Source of the DNA: Ignavibacteriota bacterium
GTDB lineage: Bacteria > Bacteroidota > Ignavibacteria > Ignavibacteriales > Melioribacteraceae
NCBI GenBank assembly: GCA_013112585.1
Contig: JABFGH010000019.1
Coordinates: 1-64,000 of the forward strand
DNA: 64,000 nt
Direction of reading: 5' to 3'
Numbering within the stretch: the first letter of the stretch is position 1; every line of letters begins with the position of its first letter. Below are positions 51,479 through 64,000 of this stretch, piece after piece. The notes beneath the pieces were generated by a model. The model saw only the letters and a program-made list of their open reading frames with translations. It searched no databases and had not been told where the DNA came from. Position numbers and translations under genes: made by a program.

Positions 51479-52891
51479 TTAATTTTTGTAGCGGGGTAAA
51501 ATTACTTTAAAAGTACTGCCTTTATTTAAAATACTGCTGACTTCAATGTAACCTCCATGCGATTCTGCAATTAATTTAACAATTGAAAGCCCCAGCCCGC
51601 TGCCGCCGGATTTACGAGCGCGGTCTTTATGAACCCTGTAGAACCGAGTAAATATATTATCGATATCCTCCGCCGGTATGCCGCTGCCATTATCCTTAAT
51701 TTCAACAACGGCTTTATTTTCTTTTATGTTCAATGATATAAAAATACTTTCTTTAACCGGAGAATATTTTATCGCATTATCTATTAAGTTAAAAAAGAGT
51801 TGGTATAATCTAAGTTTATCACCTTTGATAATAACTGGAACTATATCGACTATTGTTATTTTCTGTTCTTTAAGTTCGGCTAATACTTCGGCATCGGCAA
51901 TTACTTCTTGTAAAATATTTTTTAGATTTAGTTCTTCAAATTTAAAGATAGTATTTACATCTTCAGTTTTTGAAAGGAGCAGCAAGTTGTTAATCAAATG
52001 ATTAAGCCTGGAAATCGTTTCAATATCCTGAACTAATTTTTCTTTTAGTTCTATACTTAAATCAGTGTTATTAATTTCATTTTCCCAATGCAGCCTTAAT
52101 ATAGAAAGGGGAGTTTTTAGTTCATGGGCGGCATCGGTTAAAAATTGCTGCTGACTCATAAATGCATTTTGAAGCCGGGTTAATAAATCATTTAATACTT
52201 TGGAAAGCTGCCCTAATTCATCATGTTCATTTTCTACCTTAATTCTCTCGGTTAAGCTGCTTCTGCTTATCTGTTTTGCTCTTTGTGTTATTATATCTAC
52301 CGGGCGAAGCGATTTTAAAGTTAAGTAGTATCCGCCTATTCCTATTAAAATTAAACCGCCTAAAAGTGCAATTAATAAAACAAACAAAAATTTCTTAAGT
52401 GATTCTTCAATCTTTGTTATTGGAAGCCCGATTGTTGCCCGTCCAATTACTTGGTTGTTATAAAACAGCTGTCGTGAAATAACACGGAATGTAATTTCAT
52501 TATCATCTTTTGCCATTAAAGAATCATTTGTAATTGCAGCTTTTAGATGTCTTGTATATCGCTTTTCGATTGGGGATTCGGGAGTATCTATTTCTAAATT
52601 TATATTTTCTGCTAAACTCGAGGAGTATATAGGTTCGTCTAATTTATTATGAATGATAAGGTAATAATCGGTAAATAGATTTATACTTTCGGCAATTTTA
52701 TTTAGCTCGTTAAAATTATTATCTGCGGGGCTGTAACTTCGTTCAATTGTATCAACTACAATGTTTAACTCTTTATCAAACGCCATATATAACAAATGCT
52801 GTACCCCGTAGAACAAACCAATATTAAAAATTATTAGAATAGTAAAGGTAACGGCATAGTACCAAAGTGTTAGTCTATATCTTATTTTCAA
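51479..52891 (-). CDS. Sensor histidine kinase
   Basis: This is a 470-aa inner-membrane kinase with two helices (about 10-33 and 167-190) flanking a periplasmic domain of about 130 aa. A HAMP domain follows at about 190-245. A HisKA domain has His256 in AAHELKTPLS, and an HATPase domain has N (FFNLIDNAIKYS), G1 (DNGSGIP), F and G2 (GSGLGLSI) boxes. It autophosphorylates and passes phosphate to the regulator encoded just upstream, whose stop overlaps its start by 4 bp. Location next to the proton ATPase operon suggests envelope or ion stress as input, without direct proof. Confidence 0.93.
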   Translation of the reverse strand: MKIRYRLTLWYYAVTFTILIIFNIGLFYGVQHLLYMAFDKELNIVVDTIERSYSPADNNFNELNKIAESINLFTDYYLIIHNKLDEPIYSSSLAENINLEIDTPESPIEKRYTRHLKAAITNDSLMAKDDNEITFRVISRQLFYNNQVIGRATIGLPITKIEESLKKFLFVLLIALLGGLILIGIGGYYLTLKSLRPVDIITQRAKQISRSSLTERIKVENEHDELGQLSKVLNDLLTRLQNAFMSQQQFLTDAAHELKTPLSILRLHWENEINNTDLSIELKEKLVQDIETISRLNHLINNLLLLSKTEDVNTIFKFEELNLKNILQEVIADAEVLAELKEQKITIVDIVPVIIKGDKLRLYQLFFNLIDNAIKYSPVKESIFISLNIKENKAVVEIKDNGSGIPAEDIDNIFTRFYRVHKDRARKSGGSGLGLSIVKLIAESHGGYIEVSSILNKGSTFKVILPRYKN

Positions 52892-53568
52892 GATTCATCC
52901 TTAACTATATAGCCTACCCCTCTTACAGTTTCTATCGGGTTTAAGCCGGCTGTTTGACTAATTTTTTTTCTTAAGTTTTTAATGTGTACATCTACAAAGT
53001 TTGTCATATTAAATATATCAAAATTATCACCCCAAACATGTTCGGCAATTGAAAGACGCGACAGCACTCTATTTTTATTATAAATTAAAAATTCTAAAAT
53101 GGAATATTCCTTTGCCGTTAATGAAATTATTTTTTTATTTACTCTAACTTCGTGGGTTGTTGTGTTAATTTCTATTGAATCTAAATTGATTACAGAAGAT
53201 TTTACTTCACTCTCTCTACGTAAAAGTGAGCGGACACGTGCTACTAATTCGGGTATTGCAAATGGCTTTGTTAAATAATCGTCAGCCCCTAAATCAAGTC
53301 CTTTTACCTTATCTTCAATCTGATCTTTAGAGGTTAATAACAGAATGGGCGTTGTAATTTTTTCCCTTCTAACTTCCGCTAAAATTTGAAGTCCGCTAAT
53401 TTGCGGAAGCAAAATATCGAGAATCATTAAATCATACTCTTCCGTTAACGCCAGTTCCAATCCGCTATCTCCGCTAAATGCTGTTTCCACATAATATTTT
53501 TCACTTTCCAATAAACTTTTTATTCGTAAGGCTAATGATTCTTCATCTTCAACTACTAATATTCTCAT
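52888..53568 (-). CDS. OmpR/PhoB-family response regulator
   Basis: This is a 226-aa regulator. The receiver domain has acidic residues Glu7-Asp8-Glu9, phosphoacceptor Asp51 (LILDILLP), Thr79 and Lys101 (LTKPF). A winged-helix DNA-binding domain occupies about 125-224, with LTAKEYSILEFL and VDVHIKNLRKKI. It is the cognate partner of the overlapping histidine kinase. Likely targets are nearby envelope or ion-transport genes, but I could not identify its binding site. Confidence 0.94.
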   Translation of the reverse strand: MRILVVEDEESLALRIKSLLESEKYYVETAFSGDSGLELALTEEYDLMILDILLPQISGLQILAEVRREKITTPILLLTSKDQIEDKVKGLDLGADDYLTKPFAIPELVARVRSLLRRESEVKSSVINLDSIEINTTTHEVRVNKKIISLTAKEYSILEFLIYNKNRVLSRLSIAEHVWGDNFDIFNMTNFVDVHIKNLRKKISQTAGLNPIETVRGVGYIVKDES

Positions 53569-54587: not shown

Positions 54588-54782
54588 TTACTTAAGATTG
54601 TTTAAAAATTCGCATGCAGTTTTAATATGATCTTCTAATTTCTGCTTCGGAATCTTCTCCAAATTTCTGCTGAAAAAAACAGTTCTATTATTTGAAGAAA
54701 AATATTTTTGATGCTTGTGAATAAAATTCCAAAATAATGCGTCCCAAATTTTTGTCCAATCGCCCGACTTATAATCACTCAT
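54588..54782 (-). CDS. C-terminal part of the cryptochrome/photolyase, in a -1 frame relative to the main part
   Basis: This is a 64-codon frame starting with the ATG that overlaps the TGA of the main photolyase frame. The sequence MSDYKSGDW..DALFWNFIHKHQKYF..N continues exactly where the family reads KMSxY and then has its C-terminal helix bundle. A single -1 slip on the A7 run (54782-54788) would fuse the parts into a 495-aa protein of normal family length. On its own it is not a sensible protein. Real frameshift, programmed slippage and a homopolymer sequencing error are all possible. Confidence 0.75.
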   Translation of the reverse strand: MSDYKSGDWTKIWDALFWNFIHKHQKYFSSNNRTVFFSRNLEKIPKQKLEDHIKTACEFLNNLK

Positions 54783-54790
54783 TTTTTTAC
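54779..54790 (-). other. Frameshift site: A_AAA_AAA heptamer followed by TGA
   Basis: In the reading frame the codons are GTA AAA AAA TGA. The seven A residues sit in the X_XXY_YYZ phase used by -1 frameshifting, directly ahead of the stop. After a -1 slip the next codon is ATG and the family-conserved sequence resumes. Confidence 0.7.
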
Positions 54791-56074
54791 ATAATTTGAT
54801 GAACTAATATAGGGTTTCGTGCTCATCAGACCTCCATCGGCAAACTGACTCATTCCATAAACATTAGGAACCATAACCCAGTCGTAAGCATCGACGTACA
54901 TTTCCATAAACCACTTGTAAACCTCGGTTGGATTAATTTCGCAGAGCAGCATAAAATTTCCGAGTATCATTAGCCTTTCTATGTGATGGTTGTAACCGGT
55001 TTTTAGCAGCTTTTTAATTGTTTCATCAATCGGTTCAATTCCTGTTGTTCCATCATAAAATGATTTTGGAATTTTACGATCGTTATTCCAAAAATTTGAG
55101 TTTCTTTGATTAACTCCTTCAATTAAATAAACAGCTCGTATAAATTCACGCCATCCTATTATTTGCCTTATAAATCCCTCTAAAGAATTAAAAGAAATAT
55201 CGTTCGAGTCAGCGTAATCTAAAGTTTTATCAATTACATAATCAGGGTTTAGCAGACCTGAATTAATTAAAGGAGATAATAGCGAATGGAAAAGAAATGA
55301 TTCGTTTTTCACAATTGCGTCTTGGTAACTTCCGTAATTGTCAAATTTAGTTTTAAGAAAATCATCCAACCACTTTTTGGAGGTCGCTGTTGAAATCGGT
55401 AAGTAAAAGTTTTCGTTTGATCCGGGGTTACTTTTGAAATTATCATTTACATATTTTTTTGCTTCATCGATATACTTTTTATCCGTTTCGGAAGTTGGTA
55501 GTTTAGGAATTGCAATATCCTTAGGGATTGATTTTCTATTTTCCGAATCAAAGCTCCACTTACCATTTACCGGTTTCCCATTTTCAACGAGTATATTAAA
55601 TTTCTTGCGCTGTTCTGCATAAAAGTAGTGTTGAAAAAAACTTTTCTTATTCTTAAAGTAATCGGTTAGATATTCGGGGTCATTCATAAACGAGGGGTTA
55701 TTGAACCATTCTACATTTATATCATTTTGTTTTGCGTCTCTTTCAATTCGCAAATTGAGAATAAAATCATCGGGTCGGCAAACCTTTATTCGATTGAAGT
55801 TTTTCTTTTTAAGCCATTTAAATAAATATTTCTTCTCTTTCTTGAAATTATGATAATCAATGTAATCAACACTATAATCTTGTTTTTCCAACTCTGCAGC
55901 ATATCGCTTCATACTGGCTCTATGAAAAGTCAGCTTCATTTTATGAAAGTTAAGCGAATAATGATGGTCGCCGAAAAATAAAGGGTCTTCAACTAATACG
56001 GCATTTTTGCTTTCGCTTAATGCAGGATGATCTTCAAAAAGCTGATGCGGAAAAATTAAAGTTATTGAATTCAT
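54779..56074 (-). CDS. Cryptochrome/photolyase family protein (COG3046 type), main part, frameshifted near the C terminus
   Basis: This frame has 431 aa. The N-terminal alpha/beta antenna-type domain (ITLIFPHQLFEDHP) is followed by the helical FAD domain with GWREFIRAVYL, GYNHHIERLMILGNFMLL and MSQFADGGLMSTKPYISSSNY, hallmarks of the prokaryotic (6-4) photolyase/cryptochrome clade. The frame stops at TGA 54779, and the missing end lies in 54588-54782. The fused protein would have only three Cys, and the segment after KMSDY lacks the clustered Cys that bind a 4Fe-4S cluster in known clade members, so it likely lacks the cluster. It is the last gene of the CarH-linked run, 18 bp after the lipoprotein. 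Confidence 0.85.
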   Translation of the reverse strand: MNSITLIFPHQLFEDHPALSESKNAVLVEDPLFFGDHHYSLNFHKMKLTFHRASMKRYAAELEKQDYSVDYIDYHNFKKEKKYLFKWLKKKNFNRIKVCRPDDFILNLRIERDAKQNDINVEWFNNPSFMNDPEYLTDYFKNKKSFFQHYFYAEQRKKFNILVENGKPVNGKWSFDSENRKSIPKDIAIPKLPTSETDKKYIDEAKKYVNDNFKSNPGSNENFYLPISTATSKKWLDDFLKTKFDNYGSYQDAIVKNESFLFHSLLSPLINSGLLNPDYVIDKTLDYADSNDISFNSLEGFIRQIIGWREFIRAVYLIEGVNQRNSNFWNNDRKIPKSFYDGTTGIEPIDETIKKLLKTGYNHHIERLMILGNFMLLCEINPTEVYKWFMEMYVDAYDWVMVPNVYGMSQFADGGLMSTKPYISSSNYVKK

Positions 56075-56092: not shown

Positions 56093-56632
56093 CTAATTAT
56101 CTTCAGTCAGCAAACTTCTAAGCTCATTTAATGATTGAACAGAGAAACCTCTGTCATGAAAGAAAATTACTTTGCCATCTTTATCTAATAAAATTACTCT
56201 AGTATTATTCGGGTTTTCATTTCCGGTAAACTTTTGAACTTCAGCACCGCCGCTGTAAATTGTAATTACGCCGCCCCAAAATTCTTTGGGAATTCCCGAT
56301 CGCATTCCTTCATCAATAAATGTTTTAAACATTCTGGGGAACAAACCTTGAATCGTAGGCAGTTCATAAACTTTAGCTTTTGTATTTGTCATATCTAAAC
56401 CAATCAGCCAGCGATCAACATCAAACTGGGTGTCTTGCTTGTATGCTATTAATAAAATCACTTCGCTTCCGGAAAAGAATTTAGGCAGCTCAACATCTTC
56501 TTCAGTTAATGTTTGTCCGCTGACACTCGGAAAATATTTCCCAACAGGATCACGATTAGTATAAGTAGTTGCACAGCTTGAAAACAGAATAGTTGCAGTG
56601 AATAACAACATTATAATTTTTAATTTTTTCAT
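56093..56632 (-). CDS. Lipoprotein with thioredoxin-like/ATP10-like features
   Basis: This is a 179-aa protein with a lipoprotein signal (lipobox FSSC, Cys20). The mature part starts GKYFPSVSGQTLTEEDVELP and ends VILLDKDGKVIFFHDRGFS, a layout like that of thioredoxin-fold redoxin relatives and the ATP10 assembly factor family. It has no CxxC, so disulfide chemistry is unlikely. It sits between CIA30 and the photolyase in the light-locus operon (9 and 18 bp gaps). Family assignment is tentative. Confidence 0.6.
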   Translation of the reverse strand: MKKLKIIMLLFTATILFSSCATTYTNRDPVGKYFPSVSGQTLTEEDVELPKFFSGSEVILLIAYKQDTQFDVDRWLIGLDMTNTKAKVYELPTIQGLFPRMFKTFIDEGMRSGIPKEFWGGVITIYSGGAEVQKFTGNENPNNTRVILLDKDGKVIFFHDRGFSVQSLNELRSLLTEDN

Positions 56633-56641
56633 TTTTATTTC

Positions 56642-57184
56642 TTAGTCCTTGTAAAATTTAATCCAATCTATTTGCATACTAAAATTGCCGAATTGCTTAT
56701 CGGAGATTAGTAATCCCGCCTGCCTAATATTATTCGACTCAAGTTTCGGCTGGTTATCATAAGTGCGTCCGCGATATGTAGCAGTAAAATCATCGAATGG
56801 TATCTTAAATTCTTTCCAATTTTCTTCCGTATTAAACTTTGCCTGGTAAGATATATCATCCCAATTTAAGTTTGTTCTAAATCTTAAACTATAAATATTG
56901 CCATCACCCTTTGCCCGAACTATTACTCCATCAAAATTTTCAAAACCGTTGCTATCCAATTCAGCTCTTACTGAGGCAAAACCGCCATTATTATCGGGTG
57001 ATAAAATCCCTTCAAAACTTGCATAGCCTTCTTCACTTAAAGTAAAGCTGGCTTTAGAAACTCCACCCATAACAACATCGTTAATTATATTCCATTTATT
57101 CAGATTACCATTTTTGTTGAAATCAATAATCTCTTTTTCTCCGCTCATAAAAACTCCAAGTAGTAAAATCATTAATATTTTCAA
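56642..57184 (-). CDS. CIA30-family protein
   Basis: This is a 180-aa protein with a short hydrophobic N terminus and a CIA30 (complex I intermediate-associated protein 30) jelly-roll domain: WNIINDVVMGGVSKA, GGFASVRAE, FDGVIVRAKGDG, and a C-terminal IRQAGLLISDKQFGNFSMQIDWI-like run. Despite the name, bacterial members have no proven complex I role. Some sit in stress or light-induced operons. Its start overlaps the stop of the SDR-DUF2867 gene by 4 bp. Confidence 0.85.
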   Translation of the reverse strand: MKILMILLLGVFMSGEKEIIDFNKNGNLNKWNIINDVVMGGVSKASFTLSEEGYASFEGILSPDNNGGFASVRAELDSNGFENFDGVIVRAKGDGNIYSLRFRTNLNWDDISYQAKFNTEENWKEFKIPFDDFTATYRGRTYDNQPKLESNNIRQAGLLISDKQFGNFSMQIDWIKFYKD

Positions 57185-58644
57185 TTTTTCACCGTTACAA
57201 TTTTTGCATTAGTTTCTGAAATTATTTTTTTTGCCATTCCGTTAAAAATAATTTTATGAATAGGCAAAAGAGAATACCAGTATAATCTGCCAAGTAAACC
57301 ATTGGGGCGAAAAGTTGCTTTCTGCATAAAGCTGTTTTTCTTTTCATCAACCTTCAGCTCAAGCCATGCTTCACCTGGGACTTTCATTTCCGCATAAAGT
57401 ATAAGGCGACCGGTTTGCTTATTTGCAAAAATTACTCTCCACCAATCCAAGGCATCACCTTGCTTTAATTCCGTTGGGCTTCTTCTTCCCCTCCTAAGAC
57501 CAACACCGCCTACAACTTTATCTAATAAACCTCTTAGCACCCATGCCCAGTTCCAATAGTACCAGCCATTTTTACCGCCTATTTCCCAAACTTTATTTTT
57601 TACTTCAGCAGAGCTAATATTATAATGTATAGTTCGCTCATCGGTTTGGCAGCCGTATTCGGGTACTTCAACTTTATCTAAAAAGTTTTGTTCTAAATTG
57701 CCTGTAATTGCAGAGTCAATCCAGCTTGATTCAACTTTATTTGTCACAATCATTTTAAATGCCCGCTCAATTGCTTCTTCATATCCAATTAAATTTGTTT
57801 TAACAATATTTTCAATTCCGGCAATTTCGCAAACAACTTTGTTTTTCATACTATCAACTAAACTTTTTGCAAGTTGAAAATTTGTTGATGTAACGAAGTA
57901 AAGCCAATAAGATGAGAGGCGGGGAGTTAAAACGGGAACTGTAATTATTATTCTTTTTAGTCCGCGCACCTTTGCATACAATTGAAGCATTTGCTTATAT
58001 GTTAAAATATCAGGTCCGCCTATATCGAACACTTTACCGAACGCCTCTTGTTTATTTATAACTCCAAGCAAATAATCGATTACATTCTTTATAGCAATGG
58101 GCTGACATTTTGTTTTAAGCCACTTGGGAGTAACCATAATAGGAAGTTTTTCTGCAAGGTCTCTTATTATCTCGAACGAACCGCTGCCGGATCCAATAAT
58201 AATTGCAGCTCTTAATATTGTTGTTTCAGCATCAGCTTCTTGTAAAATTTTTTCAACATTTAACCGGGAGCTTAAATGTTTTGAAAGCTCCGTCTCATCA
58301 TTAATAATTCCGCTGAGATAAATTATTTGTTTAGCTTTAGTTTTGTTCAAAGCATTTACAAAGTTTTTAGCGGCTTTACTTTCAAGTGTAGAAAAGTGTG
58401 AGCTTGAAGCTCCCATTGAATGAACAAAATAGTATGCAATATCAATATCAGTTGGAATTTCTGTTAGGCTTTTTTCATCAAGCAAATCACCTTTTACTAT
58501 TACTATTCTTTCATTCTCATAATACTCATCAGAGAATCTTCGTGGGTCACGAACTAAACATACAACTGTATGACCTGCTTCGAGTAAGTGTGGTAATAAT
58601 CTTTTCCCAATATAGCCTGTAGCCCCGGTCAATAAAATTTTCAT
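57181..58644 (-). CDS. NAD(P)-binding SDR/epimerase fused to DUF2867
   Basis: This is a 487-aa protein. Residues 1-300 are an atypical short-chain dehydrogenase/epimerase with GATGYIGKRLLPHL at the N terminus (GxxGxxG) and a domain of the NmrA type. Residues about 335-480 match DUF2867, with WAWVLRGLLDKVVGG and WWRVIFANKQTGRL. This fusion is common in photooxidative stress and photolyase operons of other bacteria. Substrate unknown. The gene overlaps both neighbours by 4 bp, so it is tightly coupled. Confidence 0.88.
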   Translation of the reverse strand: MKILLTGATGYIGKRLLPHLLEAGHTVVCLVRDPRRFSDEYYENERIVIVKGDLLDEKSLTEIPTDIDIAYYFVHSMGASSSHFSTLESKAAKNFVNALNKTKAKQIIYLSGIINDETELSKHLSSRLNVEKILQEADAETTILRAAIIIGSGSGSFEIIRDLAEKLPIMVTPKWLKTKCQPIAIKNVIDYLLGVINKQEAFGKVFDIGGPDILTYKQMLQLYAKVRGLKRIIITVPVLTPRLSSYWLYFVTSTNFQLAKSLVDSMKNKVVCEIAGIENIVKTNLIGYEEAIERAFKMIVTNKVESSWIDSAITGNLEQNFLDKVEVPEYGCQTDERTIHYNISSAEVKNKVWEIGGKNGWYYWNWAWVLRGLLDKVVGGVGLRRGRRSPTELKQGDALDWWRVIFANKQTGRLILYAEMKVPGEAWLELKVDEKKNSFMQKATFRPNGLLGRLYWYSLLPIHKIIFNGMAKKIISETNAKIVTVKN

Positions 58645-59654
58645 TTTTCGGCAAGCTCAATTATTTGTTTGTTATTATAAATATGTTCGGCTGCGGATAG
58701 TCCCGATAAATAAGCTGAGTCAATGTTATTTCCTCTGAATGCATCACCGGCTACTAACAATCCATTTTGCTTATCAATAACCTCAAAGGATTTGCCGGAA
58801 GAAAATAATGGTTTTGAAAACTTCCATTTGTGAATTTGATAATCAAGGATTTTACTTGTGATCCATTTTCTAGATAATTCCAAGATCATTTTTCTCAATT
58901 CACTATTGCTCTTATTCCAATTATCAACACTAAATGAATTTGACATTTCAACTGTTACTGCAGTTTTGAATTTATTTATTCCCTTAGAATTATTGTCAGT
59001 AATAAAAGAGACTGGACCCTCATCCAAATAAATTCCTCCTTTGCCGGCTAAGCTTATGCTTCCATCGGCAATAAAAAGTCCTACTATACTTCTTTCATAT
59101 TTTATTTCTTGCAAATTATTTTGAAGTGTCTTATCAAGGTCAATTTTGGAATTATCCAATAAATCTATTGCCTGCGGTACCGGGAGTGTTAACAACATAG
59201 TTTTTGATTTATAAACATTCCCAAGTTCATCTATCGATTGCCAAAAATTATTTATACGTCTAAGTTCAATCACTTTTGTCGAATTTAAAATATTTAATTC
59301 TTTTGATAGAAAAATAGCTACTTCACGCATACTCTTTCTACCAATAAACTTTGGAGTTTCATCAACGTTTTCAACTTCATTCCATTTAGAGATGATTTGA
59401 TTTTTGTAAAGTAGTGAAAGCAGTTCATCAAATTTCTCGGATGTTCCCTCTAAATATTTCGCTCCATAATCAAAAACTATTTTTTGATTTTCAAAATTTA
59501 TTCTGCGTGTTGCCATGCGTCCGCCTATGCCTTTGCCTTTATCTAACAGAAGAACGCTGAGTCCCTTTTGCTGAAGGTAATTGCCTGCGGTTATGCCGGT
59601 AATTCCTGCGCCGACAATTATCGTATCAAATATTTTATTGTTAAAGTCATTCAT
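58641..59654 (-). CDS. FAD-dependent oxidoreductase, renalase/amine-oxidase-like
   Basis: This is a 337-aa flavoprotein. It has a Rossmann FAD-binding start (TIIVGAGITGITAGNYL), an acidic residue at the second strand (LLLDKGKGIGGRMATRR), and a C-terminal GLLVAGDAFRGNNIDSAYLSG that contacts FAD. The size and the GGRMATRR motif match the renalase-like NAD(P)/FAD family. It lies 7 bp after the SDR gene and overlaps the next by 4 bp. Such enzymes recur in light or singlet-oxygen regulons; the substrate is unknown. Confidence 0.87.
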   Translation of the reverse strand: MNDFNNKIFDTIIVGAGITGITAGNYLQQKGLSVLLLDKGKGIGGRMATRRINFENQKIVFDYGAKYLEGTSEKFDELLSLLYKNQIISKWNEVENVDETPKFIGRKSMREVAIFLSKELNILNSTKVIELRRINNFWQSIDELGNVYKSKTMLLTLPVPQAIDLLDNSKIDLDKTLQNNLQEIKYERSIVGLFIADGSISLAGKGGIYLDEGPVSFITDNNSKGINKFKTAVTVEMSNSFSVDNWNKSNSELRKMILELSRKWITSKILDYQIHKWKFSKPLFSSGKSFEVIDKQNGLLVAGDAFRGNNIDSAYLSGLSAAEHIYNNKQIIELAEK

Positions 59655-59661
59655 ATAATTA

Positions 59662-60408
59662 TCAGTTAGCTTTCATACCGCCATCTATTGGTAAAATTGT
59701 TCCTGTTACCCACGCGGAATTATCCGATGCCAAATAAAGTATAGCTTCGGTAACATCTTTAGGTTCACCAATTCTTCCCATGGGATGCATTGACGTGGAT
59801 GCTTTTTTTGAAATTTCATTTTGAGTTAAAAATTTAGCCAGAGGAGTATCTACCAATCCTAACGCAACCCCATTAAATCTAATACCCCGTTTAGCATAGG
59901 TTACCGAAGCTGAGCGGATCATCGCTTCTAATCCTCCTTTTGCGGCACTAATTGCTTCATGGTTCATTAATCCTTTGGAGCCTGCAACAGAGGAAACAAC
60001 AACTACTGATCCCTGTTTTTGTTTCTGCATCTGTTTTAGTGAAGCCTTAATTGCCAAAAAAGGTGAAGTTAAATTTAGGTCTAAAACATCTTTGAACGTT
60101 TCGATATCTGTATTGTGTAATGGTTTTAATACAATTGAACCAACGGCATGAACTAATGAATCTAATCTTCCAAATTTTTCAACAGTTTTATTAACTGCAT
60201 TTTCTAAGTCTTCAAAACTTGTCGCGTCACCTTCAATAATTAGACTTTCATTATTCAGCGAAGTACCTAAATCTTCTAATTTTCCCCTGTTCTTTGAAAA
60301 CAATACAACTGATGAACCTTCTTCATCAAATCTTTTTGCAGCAGCGCTGCCTATTCCACCGGTTGCTCCTATTATCAATACTACTTTATTTTCAAAATTG
60401 TTTTTCAT
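59662..60408 (-). CDS. Short-chain dehydrogenase family protein lacking the catalytic Tyr
   Basis: This is a 248-aa SDR. The cofactor motif is GATGGIG (14-20), and the Ser of the active site is in VVVSSVAGS (139-140). The usual Y-x-x-x-K is I153-S-A-A-K157, so Tyr is replaced by Ile while Lys is kept. NHEAISAAKGG is a pattern I recall from a subgroup of SDRs in photolyase-linked operons. C-terminal ILPIDGG is normal. It may be a binding or regulatory SDR or use another acid. It follows carH after 91 bp, and a TTTGTACAAA palindrome lies in that gap. Confidence 0.85.
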   Translation of the reverse strand: MKNNFENKVVLIIGATGGIGSAAAKRFDEEGSSVVLFSKNRGKLEDLGTSLNNESLIIEGDATSFEDLENAVNKTVEKFGRLDSLVHAVGSIVLKPLHNTDIETFKDVLDLNLTSPFLAIKASLKQMQKQKQGSVVVVSSVAGSKGLMNHEAISAAKGGLEAMIRSASVTYAKRGIRFNGVALGLVDTPLAKFLTQNEISKKASTSMHPMGRIGEPKDVTEAILYLASDNSAWVTGTILPIDGGMKAN

Positions 60409-60499: not shown

Positions 60500-61447
60500 T
60501 CAATTGTACTTGTTTTCGCGGATTGCAGATAGACTTTTTTTAAAGTTAGCGATATCTAAAATTACCCTTGCTCCAATTTCTTCTAATACATCTAAATAAC
60601 CCCTGGCACCTTTACCGCCAACAAGAAGCGAGATATTATCCGGTAGAATCTGTTTAAACTTTATCAGTTCTTTTCTCAACATATAATCATCTAGCGGGTA
60701 AACAATACTTATTGCAATTGCTTTACAATTAAGTTGTTCTGCTGCACCAACAATTTCTTCTGCAGGTAGATTTGGACCAAGATAAGTAACGTTCCATCCC
60801 TCACTTGAAGCTACAGCCGAAACGATTAAAGCCCCAAGTTCATGAAGTTGACCTTGAGGCGTTGTAGCTAAAATTTTCGGCGCTGATTCGCTGTTTTTAC
60901 TGGTATCAATCAAATTGGAAAGAAATCCTCTCAGCGAGGCAGTAACCATATGTTCATGATAAACTCTAATTTCACCCTCTTTCCATAAATCGCCAATATG
61001 AGTGATTAAAGGAATTATTATTCTATCAAGCAAAACGGGCTGACTAAAACTTACCGATGCCTTATACAAGGTTGATTCAAGTTCTTTAAGATCTAAAGCA
61101 TAGACGGATTTTAGACAACTGGTGAAATACTTATCAGGGTCAGTTGGTTGTCTAACTTCCCGCTGAACTTTATAATTCTCCATTCTCGGTTCCTGCCGAT
61201 CTTCAACTAAGTCGCGAAGCTCATCAATTGATAAATTAGCAATACCGCCAATATTGTGACCTTGATCTGTTAATTTAAGCAAAATTTGCAGTTTTTCAAT
61301 ATCTGATTCTGAATAGAGTCTTCTATTAGTTTCAGTTCTGTTCGGAACAACTGCATTATAACGTTTTTCCCATGCTCTAATAACATGGACGCTTAGCCCT
61401 GTTTTTTGGGCTACAGCTTTGATCGGATATTTGTTTTCGTTTTTCAT
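60500..61447 (-). CDS. carH: CarH/LitR-type MerR-family B12-dependent photoreceptor repressor
   Basis: This is a 315-aa protein. The N-terminal MerR winged helix (8-75; VHVIRAWEKRYNAVVP) is followed by a helical B12 cap domain (about 105-185) and a Rossmann B12-binding domain (190-310). The cap has W155-x9-E165-H166, the Wx9EH signature of CarH photoreceptors. The lower cobalt ligand His202 lies in QGQLHELG, matching ExHxxG except for Gln at the first position. Known CarH proteins bind adenosylcobalamin, tetramerise on DNA in the dark and fall apart in light. Its own promoter carries matching operator repeats (61452-61484), so it is probably autoregulated. Confidence 0.92.
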   Translation of the reverse strand: MKNENKYPIKAVAQKTGLSVHVIRAWEKRYNAVVPNRTETNRRLYSESDIEKLQILLKLTDQGHNIGGIANLSIDELRDLVEDRQEPRMENYKVQREVRQPTDPDKYFTSCLKSVYALDLKELESTLYKASVSFSQPVLLDRIIIPLITHIGDLWKEGEIRVYHEHMVTASLRGFLSNLIDTSKNSESAPKILATTPQGQLHELGALIVSAVASSEGWNVTYLGPNLPAEEIVGAAEQLNCKAIAISIVYPLDDYMLRKELIKFKQILPDNISLLVGGKGARGYLDVLEEIGARVILDIANFKKSLSAIRENKYN

Positions 61448-61451
61448 AATT

Positions 61452-61484
61452 CAAATATAATCATTTGTCTAAGAGTTGTCAAGA
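61452..61484 (-). promoter_or_regulatory. carH promoter with overlapping CarH-type operator repeats
   Basis: On the minus strand, TTGACA (61482-61477) and TATATT (61459-61454) are 17 bp apart, continuing as TATATTTG. Two consecutive 11-mers fit nnTnnACAnnn: tcTtgACAact (61484-61474) and ctTagACAaat (61473-61463). The -10 lies in the third 11-bp cell. The -10 ends only 6 bp before the ATG, so the start point would fall on or next to the start codon. Confidence 0.8.
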
Positions 61485-61586
61485 ATATTTTTAGAAAAAT
61501 ATTTTACATGAATTTCTGCGATTATCGGCTAAAAACAAAACATATCGTTAGGCTGATAAAAAAAGATGAAATAAATTTTGTTTTTT

Positions 61587-61652
61587 ACTTGACAAATACT
61601 CGACAAGAAGTTATATTTGCCTCAACAATAATTAGACAATAACTAAACAAGC
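61587..61652 (+). promoter_or_regulatory. DUF4397-fasciclin promoter with six-cell CarH-type operator array
   Basis: TTGACA (61589-61594) and TATATT (61612-61617) are exactly 17 bp apart. Six consecutive 11-bp cells cover 61587-61652. Cells 1, 2, 4, 5 and 6 fit nnTnnACAnnn (ACA at 61592, 61603, 61625, 61636 and 61647), while cell 3 holds the -10 box. Bound repressor would cover -35, -10 and the start region. The arrangement copies that of the carH promoter on the other strand. Confidence 0.82.
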
Positions 61653-61680
61653 AAAATAAAATAAACAAAAGGAACAGAAA

Positions 61681-63006
61681 ATGAACAAACTAAGTAAATT
61701 ATTCGCACTTTTATTTCTATCATTATTTATAGTAGTATCATGTTCAGATGATGAAGAAACACCAATTCAACCCACTCCAACTCCAGAAGAATCTTCAGTA
61801 AGAGTTATACATGCAAGTTATGATGCACCTGCAGTTGACATTTGGGTCGACGGTGCAGTTGCTATAAGCAACTTATCTTATGGCGAAAGTTCAGGTTACG
61901 CTGTTTTGCCGTCCGGTACAAGAAATATTAAAGTTTCACCAACCGGTGCTTCATCGCCTATAGTAATAGATGTTGATTTAACAATAGATGCTAACAGTGA
62001 ATATACTGTATTAGCTACTGATCAATTAAGTAATATTACACCAATCGTCGCTGTTGATCAAAGAGCGATTAACACTTCAAAAGCTAAAATTAGATTTATT
62101 CATGCCAGCCCTGACGCTCCGGCAGTTGATATAAAAGTAGAAGATGGAATGGGTGCTGCATTGTTTGGTAATGTTAGCTTTCAAGATGTAAAAGATTACA
62201 TAGAAGTTGATGCCGGAACTTATAATTTAGCCGTAACACCTGCCGGTTCAACCCAGGAAGTTGTAATTCTTGGTAACGTGCCTTTAACAAGCGGGTTAGT
62301 TTATACAGTTCTTGCAAGAGGAACTTTAGATGCTAGTGACAGCGTACCTTTTGAAGTTAGAACGTTTGTAGATAACGAAGCCGGAAATGCATTCGTTGAC
62401 TTAATGGCAGCAACTACCAATGTAAAAGTTGTTCATGCTTCACCGGATGCGCCCGCAGTTGATTTATTAGTAAATGACGCAATTGCAGGATCGGGATTAG
62501 CTTTTCCAAATAATACAGGCTACTTGAATATAACCGCAGGTACAAAAAATGTAAAAGTTAATGTCGCCGGTACCTCAACTACAGTAATAAATGCAGATGT
62601 ATTATTTAACGCTTACAATAACTATTCAGTTTACGCGGTTGATGCAGCAGCTAACATTGCCCCGCTTGTAATTGAAGATGACCTTACCGTGCCGGCTTCA
62701 GGCAAAGCTCATGTAAGATTTATTCACCTTTCACCGGATGCACCGGCTGTTGACATAACCTTAACTGACGGTACGATAATATTTGGCAACAATTCATTCA
62801 AAGACTTTACAGCCTTTACTCCACTTGATGCAGGATCATATGACTTACAAGTAAGAGTAGCCGGTACAAGCACTGTTGCTTTAGAACTTGGAACCATAAC
62901 TGTAACTGAAGGAAATATTTATACAGTATTTGCCAAAGGGTTCTTGAACGGAACCGGTGACCAAGCTTTAGGCGCAGAAATAATCGTTAACAATCAATTA
63001 TTATAA
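61681..63006 (+). CDS. DUF4397 lipoprotein with four repeats
   Basis: This is a 441-aa lipoprotein with lipobox VVSC (Cys21). The mature part has four repeats of about 100 aa, each opening with a motif such as VRVIHASYDAPAVDIWVDG, IRFIHASPDAPAVDI, VKVVHASPDAPAVDL or VRFIHLSPDAPAVDI. These are DUF4397 domains, beta-rich surface modules of unknown ligand. The start has AAAGGAA upstream and a leader of about 57 nt from the predicted promoter. It is the first gene of the plus-strand side of the light locus, followed 30 bp later by a fasciclin gene. Confidence 0.9.
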   Translation: MNKLSKLFALLFLSLFIVVSCSDDEETPIQPTPTPEESSVRVIHASYDAPAVDIWVDGAVAISNLSYGESSGYAVLPSGTRNIKVSPTGASSPIVIDVDLTIDANSEYTVLATDQLSNITPIVAVDQRAINTSKAKIRFIHASPDAPAVDIKVEDGMGAALFGNVSFQDVKDYIEVDAGTYNLAVTPAGSTQEVVILGNVPLTSGLVYTVLARGTLDASDSVPFEVRTFVDNEAGNAFVDLMAATTNVKVVHASPDAPAVDLLVNDAIAGSGLAFPNNTGYLNITAGTKNVKVNVAGTSTTVINADVLFNAYNNYSVYAVDAAANIAPLVIEDDLTVPASGKAHVRFIHLSPDAPAVDITLTDGTIIFGNNSFKDFTAFTPLDAGSYDLQVRVAGTSTVALELGTITVTEGNIYTVFAKGFLNGTGDQALGAEIIVNNQLL

Positions 63007-63036: not shown

Positions 63037-63546
63037 ATGAAAACGTTATTAAATAAATCAGTATTCGCAGCAGTTGTAATATTATTAAGTGCATCACTTT
63101 TAATAGCAGGCGGACATAAATCAGAAAAGCATTCAAAGAAAGATATAGTTGAAACAGCCTTAGCAGCCGGATCATTCACAACATTGGCTACAGCATTAAC
63201 AGAAGCTGACCTGGTTTCGGCTCTACAAGGTGAAGGTCCTTTTACAGTATTTGCACCAACAGATGAAGCGTTTGCAAAATTGCCTGAAGGAACTTTAGAA
63301 AGTCTATTGAATGATAAAGATGCTTTGAAAAATATCCTTCTCTATCATGTAGTATCCGGTAAAGTATCATCAGAGCAAGTAGTAAAAATTGATGCTGCAG
63401 AAACTTTAGCAGGATCAAAAGTAAATATTAAAGTAAAAGACGGCGGCGTTATGATTAACAATTCAAACGTAACGACAGCAGATGTTTATGCCTCTAACGG
63501 TGTTATCCATGTTATTGACACAGTATTGCTGCCGCCAAGTAAATAG
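63037..63546 (+). CDS. Fasciclin-domain secreted protein
   Basis: This is a 169-aa protein with a signal peptide (about 1-25, ending near LLIAGG) and one fasciclin (FAS1) domain. FTTLATALTEADLVSAL (43-59 region), GPFTVFAPTDEAFAKLPEGT and a C-terminal NGVIHVIDTVLLP are classical. FAS1 proteins are extracellular adhesion or binding modules. In several bacteria a fasciclin gene lies beside an ECF sigma/anti-sigma pair. Here an ECF sigma gene follows after 66 bp with a hairpin between. Confidence 0.92.
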   Translation: MKTLLNKSVFAAVVILLSASLLIAGGHKSEKHSKKDIVETALAAGSFTTLATALTEADLVSALQGEGPFTVFAPTDEAFAKLPEGTLESLLNDKDALKNILLYHVVSGKVSSEQVVKIDAAETLAGSKVNIKVKDGGVMINNSNVTTADVYASNGVIHVIDTVLLPPSK

Positions 63547-63612: not shown

Positions 63613-64000
63613 ATGAAATACTCAAAAATAAATTACGTAGAACATAACAGCTCACTTAACTACAAAGCATTTGAAGAAGAAGCAGTTATTCACAGTAAAG
63701 CAGTTTATCACTTTGCTCTTTCAATGACAGGCAATCCTGAAGATGCCAATGATCTAGTTCAAGAAACTTACTTAAAAGCATTCAAGCACTTCAATAATTT
63801 TACAAAAGGTTCTAACTGTAAAGCTTGGTTATTTATGATACTTAAGAACACCTTTATAAATGAATACAGAAAAAAGAAGCGTGAGCCATACAAAGTAAAC
63901 TATGATGATATTGAGGAATTTTATGAAACAATTAAGCCGGAACAAATAGATCCGGGAGAAAATTTAGATAGTATCTATGCCGATACTTTTGATGATGATA
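63613..64000 (+). CDS. ECF-family RNA polymerase sigma factor, 5' part (cut by window end)
   Basis: The 129 visible codons start MKYSKINYVEHNSS. Sigma region 2 is clear at about 20-95: MTGNPEDANDLVQETYLKAFKHF, then CKAWLFMILKNTFINEYRKKKR. The linker after it is acidic (DDIEEFYETI). Region 4 lies beyond the window. The ribosome site (GGAA) is modest. It follows the DUF4397 and fasciclin genes on the same strand downstream of the CarH-type promoter, a position like that of light-induced LitS/CarQ-type ECF sigmas in other bacteria. No anti-sigma gene is visible in the window. Confidence 0.88.
   Translation, partial: MKYSKINYVEHNSSLNYKAFEEEAVIHSKAVYHFALSMTGNPEDANDLVQETYLKAFKHFNNFTKGSNCKAWLFMILKNTFINEYRKKKREPYKVNYDDIEEFYETIKPEQIDPGENLDSIYADTFDDD

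Follow-up and report, generated by a model that had tools for sequence, protein, structure and literature searches.

CarH regulators are known for two things that matter here, the principle of repression in the dark and the 11-bp operator unit. The unit is a TnnACA direct repeat that occurs three times in the Thermus operator and four times in that of B. megaterium, and the operators described in the cited passages overlap the -35 and/or the -10 element (PMC9304148, PMC8156234). The published consensus nnnnTnnACAn is the nnTnnACAnnn cell used below, in an 11-bp frame, shifted by two bases (PMC9304148). The family signature as given there combines Wx9EH with the classic B12 motif D/ExHx2G-x41-SxT/V-x22-27-GG (PMC8156234, PMC9304148), and the motifs described as light signatures of B12 domains are GxxW, EH, GxxH and GxxxP (PMC11796333). 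The light state of Thermus CarH is described as bis-His cobalt, formed via His132 (PMC10442372). The original prediction had named 11-bp direct repeats as the target of Thermus CarH, which the operator passages of PMC9304148 and PMC8156234 bear out.

Divergent promoters in an 11-bp frame

The window, the whole 64,000-nucleotide stretch of Ignavibacteriota DNA analysed here (contig JABFGH010000019.1, from position 1), contains an intergenic region at 61448-61680 with carH on one side (minus strand) and a DUF4397 gene on the other (plus strand). The genes around it are as follows.

54779-56074, minus strand: photolyase-related protein (Pfam DPRP and FAD_binding_7)
56093-56632, minus strand: 179-aa protein, no Pfam match at E 0.001
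56642-57184, minus strand: CIA30-domain protein (Pfam)
57181-58644, minus strand: NmrA-like / DUF2867 protein (Pfam)
58641-59654, minus strand: FAD-dependent oxidoreductase (Pfam NAD_binding_8, Amino_oxidase)
59662-60408, minus strand: short-chain dehydrogenase (SDR), next after carH (Pfam)
60500-61447, minus strand: carH, 315 aa, with MerR-type DNA-binding, four-helix and Rossmann B12-binding domains (Pfam, AlphaFold2/Foldseek)
61681-63006, plus strand: DUF4397-domain protein, first gene of the divergent run (Pfam DUF4397, four stretches)
63037-63546, plus strand: fasciclin-domain protein (Pfam Fasciclin), N terminus signal-peptide-like by eye
63613-64000, plus strand: ECF sigma factor, running past the window edge to contig position 64254 (Pfam Sigma70_r2, Sigma70_r4_2)
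Beyond the window, plus strand: polyketide-cyclase/SRPBCC-type protein (Pfam Polyketide_cyc, 34.9 bits)
Beyond the window, plus strand: phytoene desaturase family, crtI-type (TIGR02734, 370.8 bits, over the cut-off)
Beyond the window, plus strand: squalene/phytoene synthase (Pfam SQS_PSY, 138.7 bits)
Beyond the window, plus strand: lycopene cyclase (Pfam Lycopene_cyc, 89.9 bits)
Beyond the window, plus strand: Rieske oxygenase (Pfam Rieske, 84.1 bits)

The plus-strand genes stand in the order DUF4397, fasciclin, ECF sigma, Polyketide_cyc, crtI-type, SQS_PSY, Lycopene_cyc and Rieske. Spacing and strand suggest that each run, DUF4397 to crt on the plus strand and carH to the photolyase-related gene on the minus strand, would form one operon. 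The sigma factor at 63613 scores over the cut-off of NCBIfam sigma70-ECF; its best score, 179 bits to TIGR02947, is below the cut-off of that family. The neighbourhood is of light-stress type, and carotenoid genes are the classic CarH target. The earlier reading of the repeats and of their link to CarH stands, while the carotenoid nature of the divergent operon appears only beyond the window edge. A cobalamin adenosyltransferase is encoded in the genome (209 bits; the same family also scores in 9 of 14 control genomes).

Within the intergenic region we distinguish three features.

61452-61484, minus strand: predicted carH promoter, with cells at 61484-61474 and 61473-61463, the -10 cell at 61462-61452, the -35 at 61482-61477 and the -10 at 61459-61454
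61587-61619, plus strand: predicted promoter of the DUF4397-fasciclin-sigma-crt run; cell 1 contains the -35, cell 2 lies in the spacer and cell 3 contains the -10
61620-61652, plus strand: three more exact TnnACA cells in register, 3' of the -10, around the expected transcription start and 5' leader

As originally predicted, both strands carry TTGACA and TATATTTG with a 17-bp spacer, at 61589-61594 and 61612-61619 on the plus strand and at 61482-61477 and 61459-61452 on the minus strand; TATATTTG fits TAnnTTTG, which we take to be the Bacteroidota promoter box. The plus-strand frame, 61587-61652, holds five exact TnnACA cells and, in third place, the -10 cell, all in 11-bp register. Read in order from 61587, the six are ACTTGACAAAT, ACTCGACAAGA, AGTTATATTTG (the -10 cell), CCTCAACAATA, ATTAGACAATA and ACTAAACAAGC. 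The minus-strand frame, 61484-61452, consists of two exact cells and then the -10 cell (TCTTGACAACT, CTTAGACAAAT and GATTATATTTG, from 61484), followed by AATT-ATG of carH. The counts claimed for carH (two cells, then the -10 cell) and for the DUF4397 side (five and the -10 cell) are thus correct and the frames exact, but the -35 hexamer had been counted as a free cell. TTGACA necessarily matches TnnACA, and with a 17-bp spacer the -10 always falls in cell 3. The first cell and the -10 cell are therefore not independent, which leaves as free evidence a single cell for carH and, on the plus side, cells 2, 4, 5 and 6.

We propose, with a probability of roughly 0.8, that this region would be a double CarH operator from which both operons are repressed in the dark and released by light.

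Chance is a poor source of such a frame. Four free in-frame cells have a probability of about 3e-10 per site at the TnnACA frequency of the 64-kb window (0.0041 per position and strand), and of 2e-8 at a threefold higher frequency. Among 20,000 first-order Markov sequences built from this intergenic region, with the same length and dinucleotide make-up and with either strand scored, the best six-cell frame reached three cells in 21 cases and four in one; none had five. Across the window, six-cell frames of period 11 contain up to five cells, whereas periods 7-10 and 12-15 never give more than two.

The combined pattern TTGACAN5TNNACAN6TANNTT occurs twice in the 4.94-Mb genome, at precisely these two promoters, against one match for the reversed control. 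Across 97 genomes it gives 27 matches, eight of them at carH loci and 19 elsewhere (control, 6). A looser promoter search of the window's own genome, with up to two mismatches, yielded 15 matches versus 16 in the reversed control and, besides the two exact promoters, only one match at one mismatch. Three exact cells in a row are found once in the genome, at this locus; because the reversed control pattern has two genome matches, three cells alone would not convince. The three-cell pattern is present in 64 of the 97 genomes, often as TTAACA repeats away from carH, and is not specific by itself. As a separate observation, these TTAACA-type 11-bp direct repeats away from carH in the related genomes presumably resemble pho boxes.

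The regulator and its predicted light-sensing residues

The carH product matches Pfam MerR_1 (64.7 bits), B12-binding_2 and B12-binding. Its recognition helix reads RAWEKRY, with Lys for one Arg of RxWERRY, and is thus of the RxWE(R/K)RY form. The Wx9EH motif of the four-helix bundle is present (W155, E165 and H166), as is the lower ligand H202; aligned with Thermus CarH these are Trp131, Glu141, His142 and His177, and Gly192 is kept as well. The B12 motif region runs QLHELG, including His202, then SIV at 247-249 (x41) and GG at 277-278 (x27), its first residue being Gln instead of Asp/Glu. All four light-signature motifs that the SignatureFinder work describes are found, as GDLW at 152, EH at 165, GQLH at 199 and GPNLP at 224 (PMC11796333).

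An AlphaFold2 model built from 22 sequences has a mean pLDDT of 88.3 and a pTM of 0.65. Its top Foldseek rows are full-length Thermus CarH, 5c8e/5c8d, DNA-bound and dark forms first (E 9.7e-19), with a large whole-chain rmsd because domain placement differs. The B12 part matches 8c73 with Z 22.7 and an rmsd of 2.5 A over 198 residues, and Chloracidobacterium CtMerR, 8jbt, with Z 21.3 and 2.8 A over 211 residues; the VIA-align rows lie for the most part within residues 102-315 and thus say little about the DNA-binding part. Domain order, signature motifs and predicted fold support the claim that the neighbouring gene encodes a CarH-type protein. That claim stood for the CarH-like protein as such, but a lysine in place of the Thermus light-state histidine had gone unremarked.

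The substitutions deserve attention. Thermus His132, the upper cobalt ligand after light, corresponds to Lys156, so that the bis-His pair is not found in the window protein. Thermus Gly160, at the tetramer interface, is replaced by Asn, and positions 176 and 201 are occupied by Leu201 and Asn226; we take these two positions to be the Arg-Asp pair of the Thermus dimer interface. With 132.6 bits the window protein does not reach the 400-bit cut-off of the CarH equivalog family NF052513 in NCBIfam.

Lys156 would allow for a different sensor, in which the repeats are CarH sites and the protein reports AdoCbl or redox state, with loss of AdoCbl rather than light lifting repression. One study found that Thermus CarH H132A mostly remains a tetramer in light, which would fit such behaviour, although the same study refers to earlier work in which the variant disassembled (PMC10442372). 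CtMerR, however, carries Arg at the His132 position and its tetramer is still described as splitting into monomers in light (PMC11796333). Among our relatives, Wx9EH is present in 99 of 101 loci and missing in two, and the residue after its Trp is Arg in 41, Glu in 16, Lys in 14 and His in 8 of the 99 (named loci here being the best 80 of 530, a sample biased to relatives of the window protein). Among the non-redundant relatives that have Wx9EH, this His is kept in just 7 of 70 (named loci: best 80 of 530), so absence of the His132 equivalent is the rule in this sample. The four light-signature motifs (as listed in PMC11796333) and the light-stress type of neighbourhood, with its photolyase-related and carotenoid genes, likewise argue against a sensor blind to light, and we regard this explanation as improbable, with roughly one chance in eight.

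Repeats at carH in relatives

CarH relatives at E <= 1e-30 were found in 19 of the 97 genomes searched (same family and order, the window's own included). A single-protein query of named genomes returned no CarH relative; a profile search of these with a four-row alignment gave the 80 named loci, the best 80 of 530, which span Ignavibacteriales, Poribacteria, KSB1, Zixibacteria, Acidobacteriota, Verrucomicrobiota, Deltaproteobacteria and others. The 101 loci (80 of them the best 80 of 530) were reduced to 72 at 80% protein identity, dropping 29, and then to 71 with at least 100 bp upstream, dropping one for too little upstream DNA. Start codons of the relatives were script-chosen, some possibly wrongly, and that of L014 was set by hand.

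In the 71 regions (named loci: best 80 of 530), 93 TnnACA pairs lie 11 bp apart, where 200 dinucleotide shuffles lead one to expect 1.0; in the 70 regions left without the window the count is 89, again against 1.0. An in-register pair lies upstream of carH in 52 of the 71, window included, and 19 have no exact pair (best 80 of 530 again). For the regions from the 97 genomes alone the figure is 16 of 19, window included, the pair being absent in L009, L014 and L015. Loss of the repeats in relatives that keep carH, the test attached to the original prediction, is thus not the general pattern. On the named contigs (best 80 of 530) the pair occurs in 36 of 52 carH regions versus 4 of 210 other upstream regions. 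Because the latter may include coding DNA, we added a control drawn from gaps of 80 bp or more that separate other, non-convergent genes on the same contigs, and it gave the same answer (2 of 83). Mean G+C is 0.47 in the control gaps versus 0.40 in the carH regions, a bias of which the dinucleotide shuffles are free.

Promoter and repeats are linked in these regions as well. The regions contain 71 TTGACA boxes, counting either strand; 34 of these boxes have a TnnACA exactly 11 positions on, and 13 have one 11 before. The 173 in-register cells are mainly TAGACA (55), TTGACA (46) and TATACA (26); interiors are mostly AG, TG and AT, and TA, as in TTAACA, accounts for 2 of the 173.

TnnACA pairs are also in excess at spacing 22 in the 71 carH regions, and at 30-31 and 41-42, the last two being two or three bases short of register (at 42, 12 pairs versus 0.8 expected). 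In L008 (G012), three exact cells touch the carH start codon directly on its 5' side, with no TTGACA box in front. In L022 (G019), tandem cells are kept on both strands beside a CarH-like regulator from which Wx9EH and the lower-ligand His have been lost, and the divergent gene is of the thioredoxin family; the regulator is a candidate B12-independent repressor. G046 and G063 each have two carH relatives.

A response regulator of the PhoB/OmpR type, for example the product of 52888-53568 in the window, might bind the repeats in place of CarH, since OmpR-family regulators also use direct repeats of roughly 11 bp. TTAACA-type 11-bp repeats at many places in the 97 genomes would agree with this, as would the response regulator/kinase pair nearby and the relative of the regulator that blastp clustering puts in 6 of 21 ignavibacterial carH stretches. 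By tblastn, however, the regulator is in 3 of 20 ignavibacterial stretches and at 2 of 80 named loci (best 80 of 530; within 4 kb of carH), so that the arrays, present in 16 of 19 and in 36 of 52 regions (best 80 of 530), are tied more closely to carH than to this gene. TTAACA does not occur among the window's cells, and the near absence of TA interiors noted above points the same way; we consider binding by this regulator very unlikely.

The long plus-strand frame is much rarer than the pair. Five of six cells with the -10 in third place are found in 3 of 71 regions (named loci: best 80 of 530), namely the window, L006 (G094) and L055 (BMS3Abin03), always on the strand reading away from carH and with different interior bases. 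The CarH of L006 is 51% and that of L055 53% identical to the window's, and the two are 70.6% identical to each other; the three thus represent two or three independent lines at most. Each of the long arrays faces fasciclin and ECF sigma genes; in two cases crt genes are also present within the available stretch, L055 lying at a contig end. Elsewhere the downstream module sits in another phase: L007 has two cells 3' of the -10 shifted by +1, and L054 and L056 have two after a 9-bp gap (+9).

One might thus assign operator function to the upstream cells alone and see in cells 4-6, in the carotenoid leader, elements of translation or mRNA stability, or residual sequence. The out-of-frame modules of L007, L054 and L056 and the rarity of the full six-cell frame are in line with this. 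The same six-cell frame, however, recurs in the window, L006 and L055 despite different interiors and divergent CarH proteins, and the chance figures for the four free cells are very low. We hold this explanation to be unlikely, about as probable as one throw in seven, and read the layout as an upstream operator with a putative second downstream site, the frame between them being often but not always kept.

In several relatives the cells lie over another kind of promoter. The divergent promoter there reads GGAAC-N9-TnnACA-N3-GTTnnACA, a GGAAC-N18-GTT whose spacer contains one cell and whose GTT begins the next; for Corynebacterium, ECF promoters of the SigE/SigH type are described with the core GGAAC-N18-19-GTT (PMC10012870). 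With its cells the pattern has eight matches in seven of the 97 genomes, all eight at carH loci (reversed control, 2). These are L134-L141, in G089, G066, G008, G046, G031, G061 and, twice, G063, each with two in-register cells. Seven of the eight lie upstream of carH and one lies 2.2 kb from carH, before a DUF4397 gene; in G031 the gene behind the promoter is an ECF sigma. The window's own genome has no match to this cell pattern. Relatives of the window's ECF sigma (E <= 1e-40) occur in 59 of 97 genomes. A search of the window for GGAACN{15,20}TTATAC found none, and in its genome GGAACTN{15,19}TTATAC gave five matches (reversed control, 0), none with in-register cells by eye; GGAACT-N17-GTTNT gave seven there against five for the control, no clear excess.

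The position of the minus-strand promoter also bears on the carH transcript. In the window, the first base of the -35 hexamer lies 35 bases upstream of the ATG, and TATATTTG is followed directly by AATT-ATG. Across the 71 regions (named loci: best 80 of 530) there are 38 sense-strand TTGACA boxes, and in 20 of 71 the box falls at -36, -35 or -34 of the chosen carH start (3, 12 and 5). Since a -35 at this position puts the expected transcription start at or next to the start codon, the carH transcript is predicted to be leaderless or nearly so, probably in many phyla. Thermus carH is leaderless.

Genes of the plus-strand run also recur: by tblastn in flanks of up to 4 kb, fasciclin genes lie near 20 and DUF4397 genes near 11 of the 80 named carH loci (best 80 of 530). 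The algal fasciclin AstaP is described as binding carotenoids, and the cyanobacterial fasciclin tested did not (PMC10147662). A literature search by title returned nothing on point for CarH in Ignavibacteria or for fasciclin with CarH.

Proposed switch and described CarH systems

The double-operator reading is based on the architecture of the sequence, with TnnACA cells over the promoter of the putative target operon, the excess of repeats over chance, their association with carH in relatives, the motifs of the regulator and its predicted fold. From these we infer binding, its dependence on dark and light, repression and the second tetramer. In the dark, the AdoCbl-bound carH product would assemble as a multimer on the tandem 11-bp cells over the -35 and spacer of both promoters. 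On the carH promoter it would block RNA polymerase and so regulate its own gene, together with the photolyase-related genes behind it, and on the divergent promoter it would block transcription of the DUF4397-fasciclin-ECF sigma-carotenoid operon. Light would cleave the Co-C bond, the multimer would fall apart and both operons would be transcribed. Two tetramers might fit on the long array, one at the -35/-10 and the other at the start site and leader, and this, we propose, would tighten repression of the carotenoid side. Points against the double operator are Lys156, Leu201/Asn226, the Asn for Gly160, the 132.6 bits as against 400, the 19 of 71 regions without a pair, and the out-of-phase arrays L007, L054 and L056.

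More tentatively, at well below even odds, the CarH operators of Ignavibacteriales may form a movable 11-bp lattice laid over promoters of different sigma factors, with release that would not need a bis-His state. Over primary-sigma promoters, as in the window and some relatives, the lattice might run through the -10 into the leader and carry two tetramers or a short filament acting as a road-block; over ECF promoters, the -10 would start a cell.

What is new here is how long the plus-side array is and how far it reaches and, in relatives, the position of the lattice on ECF promoters. If the double operator is what it appears to be, predicted B12-based light control of carotenoid genes would extend to an ignavibacterial lineage, with a ready-made operator. 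The DUF4397 and fasciclin genes can now be regarded as candidates for a role under light stress. Since the plus-side operator is longer than those described in the cited passages, it offers a way to ask how many tetramers one promoter could carry.

Among the closest described regulators, Thermus thermophilus CarH (LitR) shares architecture, fold, Wx9EH, the lower-ligand His, 11-bp TnnACA repeats and a -35 within one of them. Its operator has three repeats, whereas the plus side of the window has five exact ones and the -10 cell and runs past the expected start site; it has His132 where the window protein has Lys. Tandem repeats, four or three plus one imperfect, are likewise described for B. 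megaterium CarH, and exact plus imperfect repeats over about 55 bp for the M. xanthus Pcrt promoter under CarH/CarA (PMC9304148). As described there, the B. megaterium and myxobacterial arrays have four or five cells, at most four of them exact, with neither five exact cells nor three cells 3' of the -10; by that measure the originally noted unusual length of the window array, with its five exact cells, is confirmed. CtMerR of Chloracidobacterium thermophilum resembles the window protein in its CarH-like B12 domain, with Arg in place of His at 132, and its tetramer is described as light-split. Its DNA-binding domain, however, is given as 25% like that of Thermus CarH, with an alternative site proposed, whereas the window protein keeps the RxWE(R/K)RY helix and 11-bp sites. 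The class II LitR proteins PplR and PmlR2 of Pseudomonas are also MerR-type light regulators, over photolyase and lipid-modification genes, but as described they have the four-helix B12 domain only and a T(G/A)TACA/TGTACA site with N12, PmlR2 acting via a LOV protein (PMC9758184).
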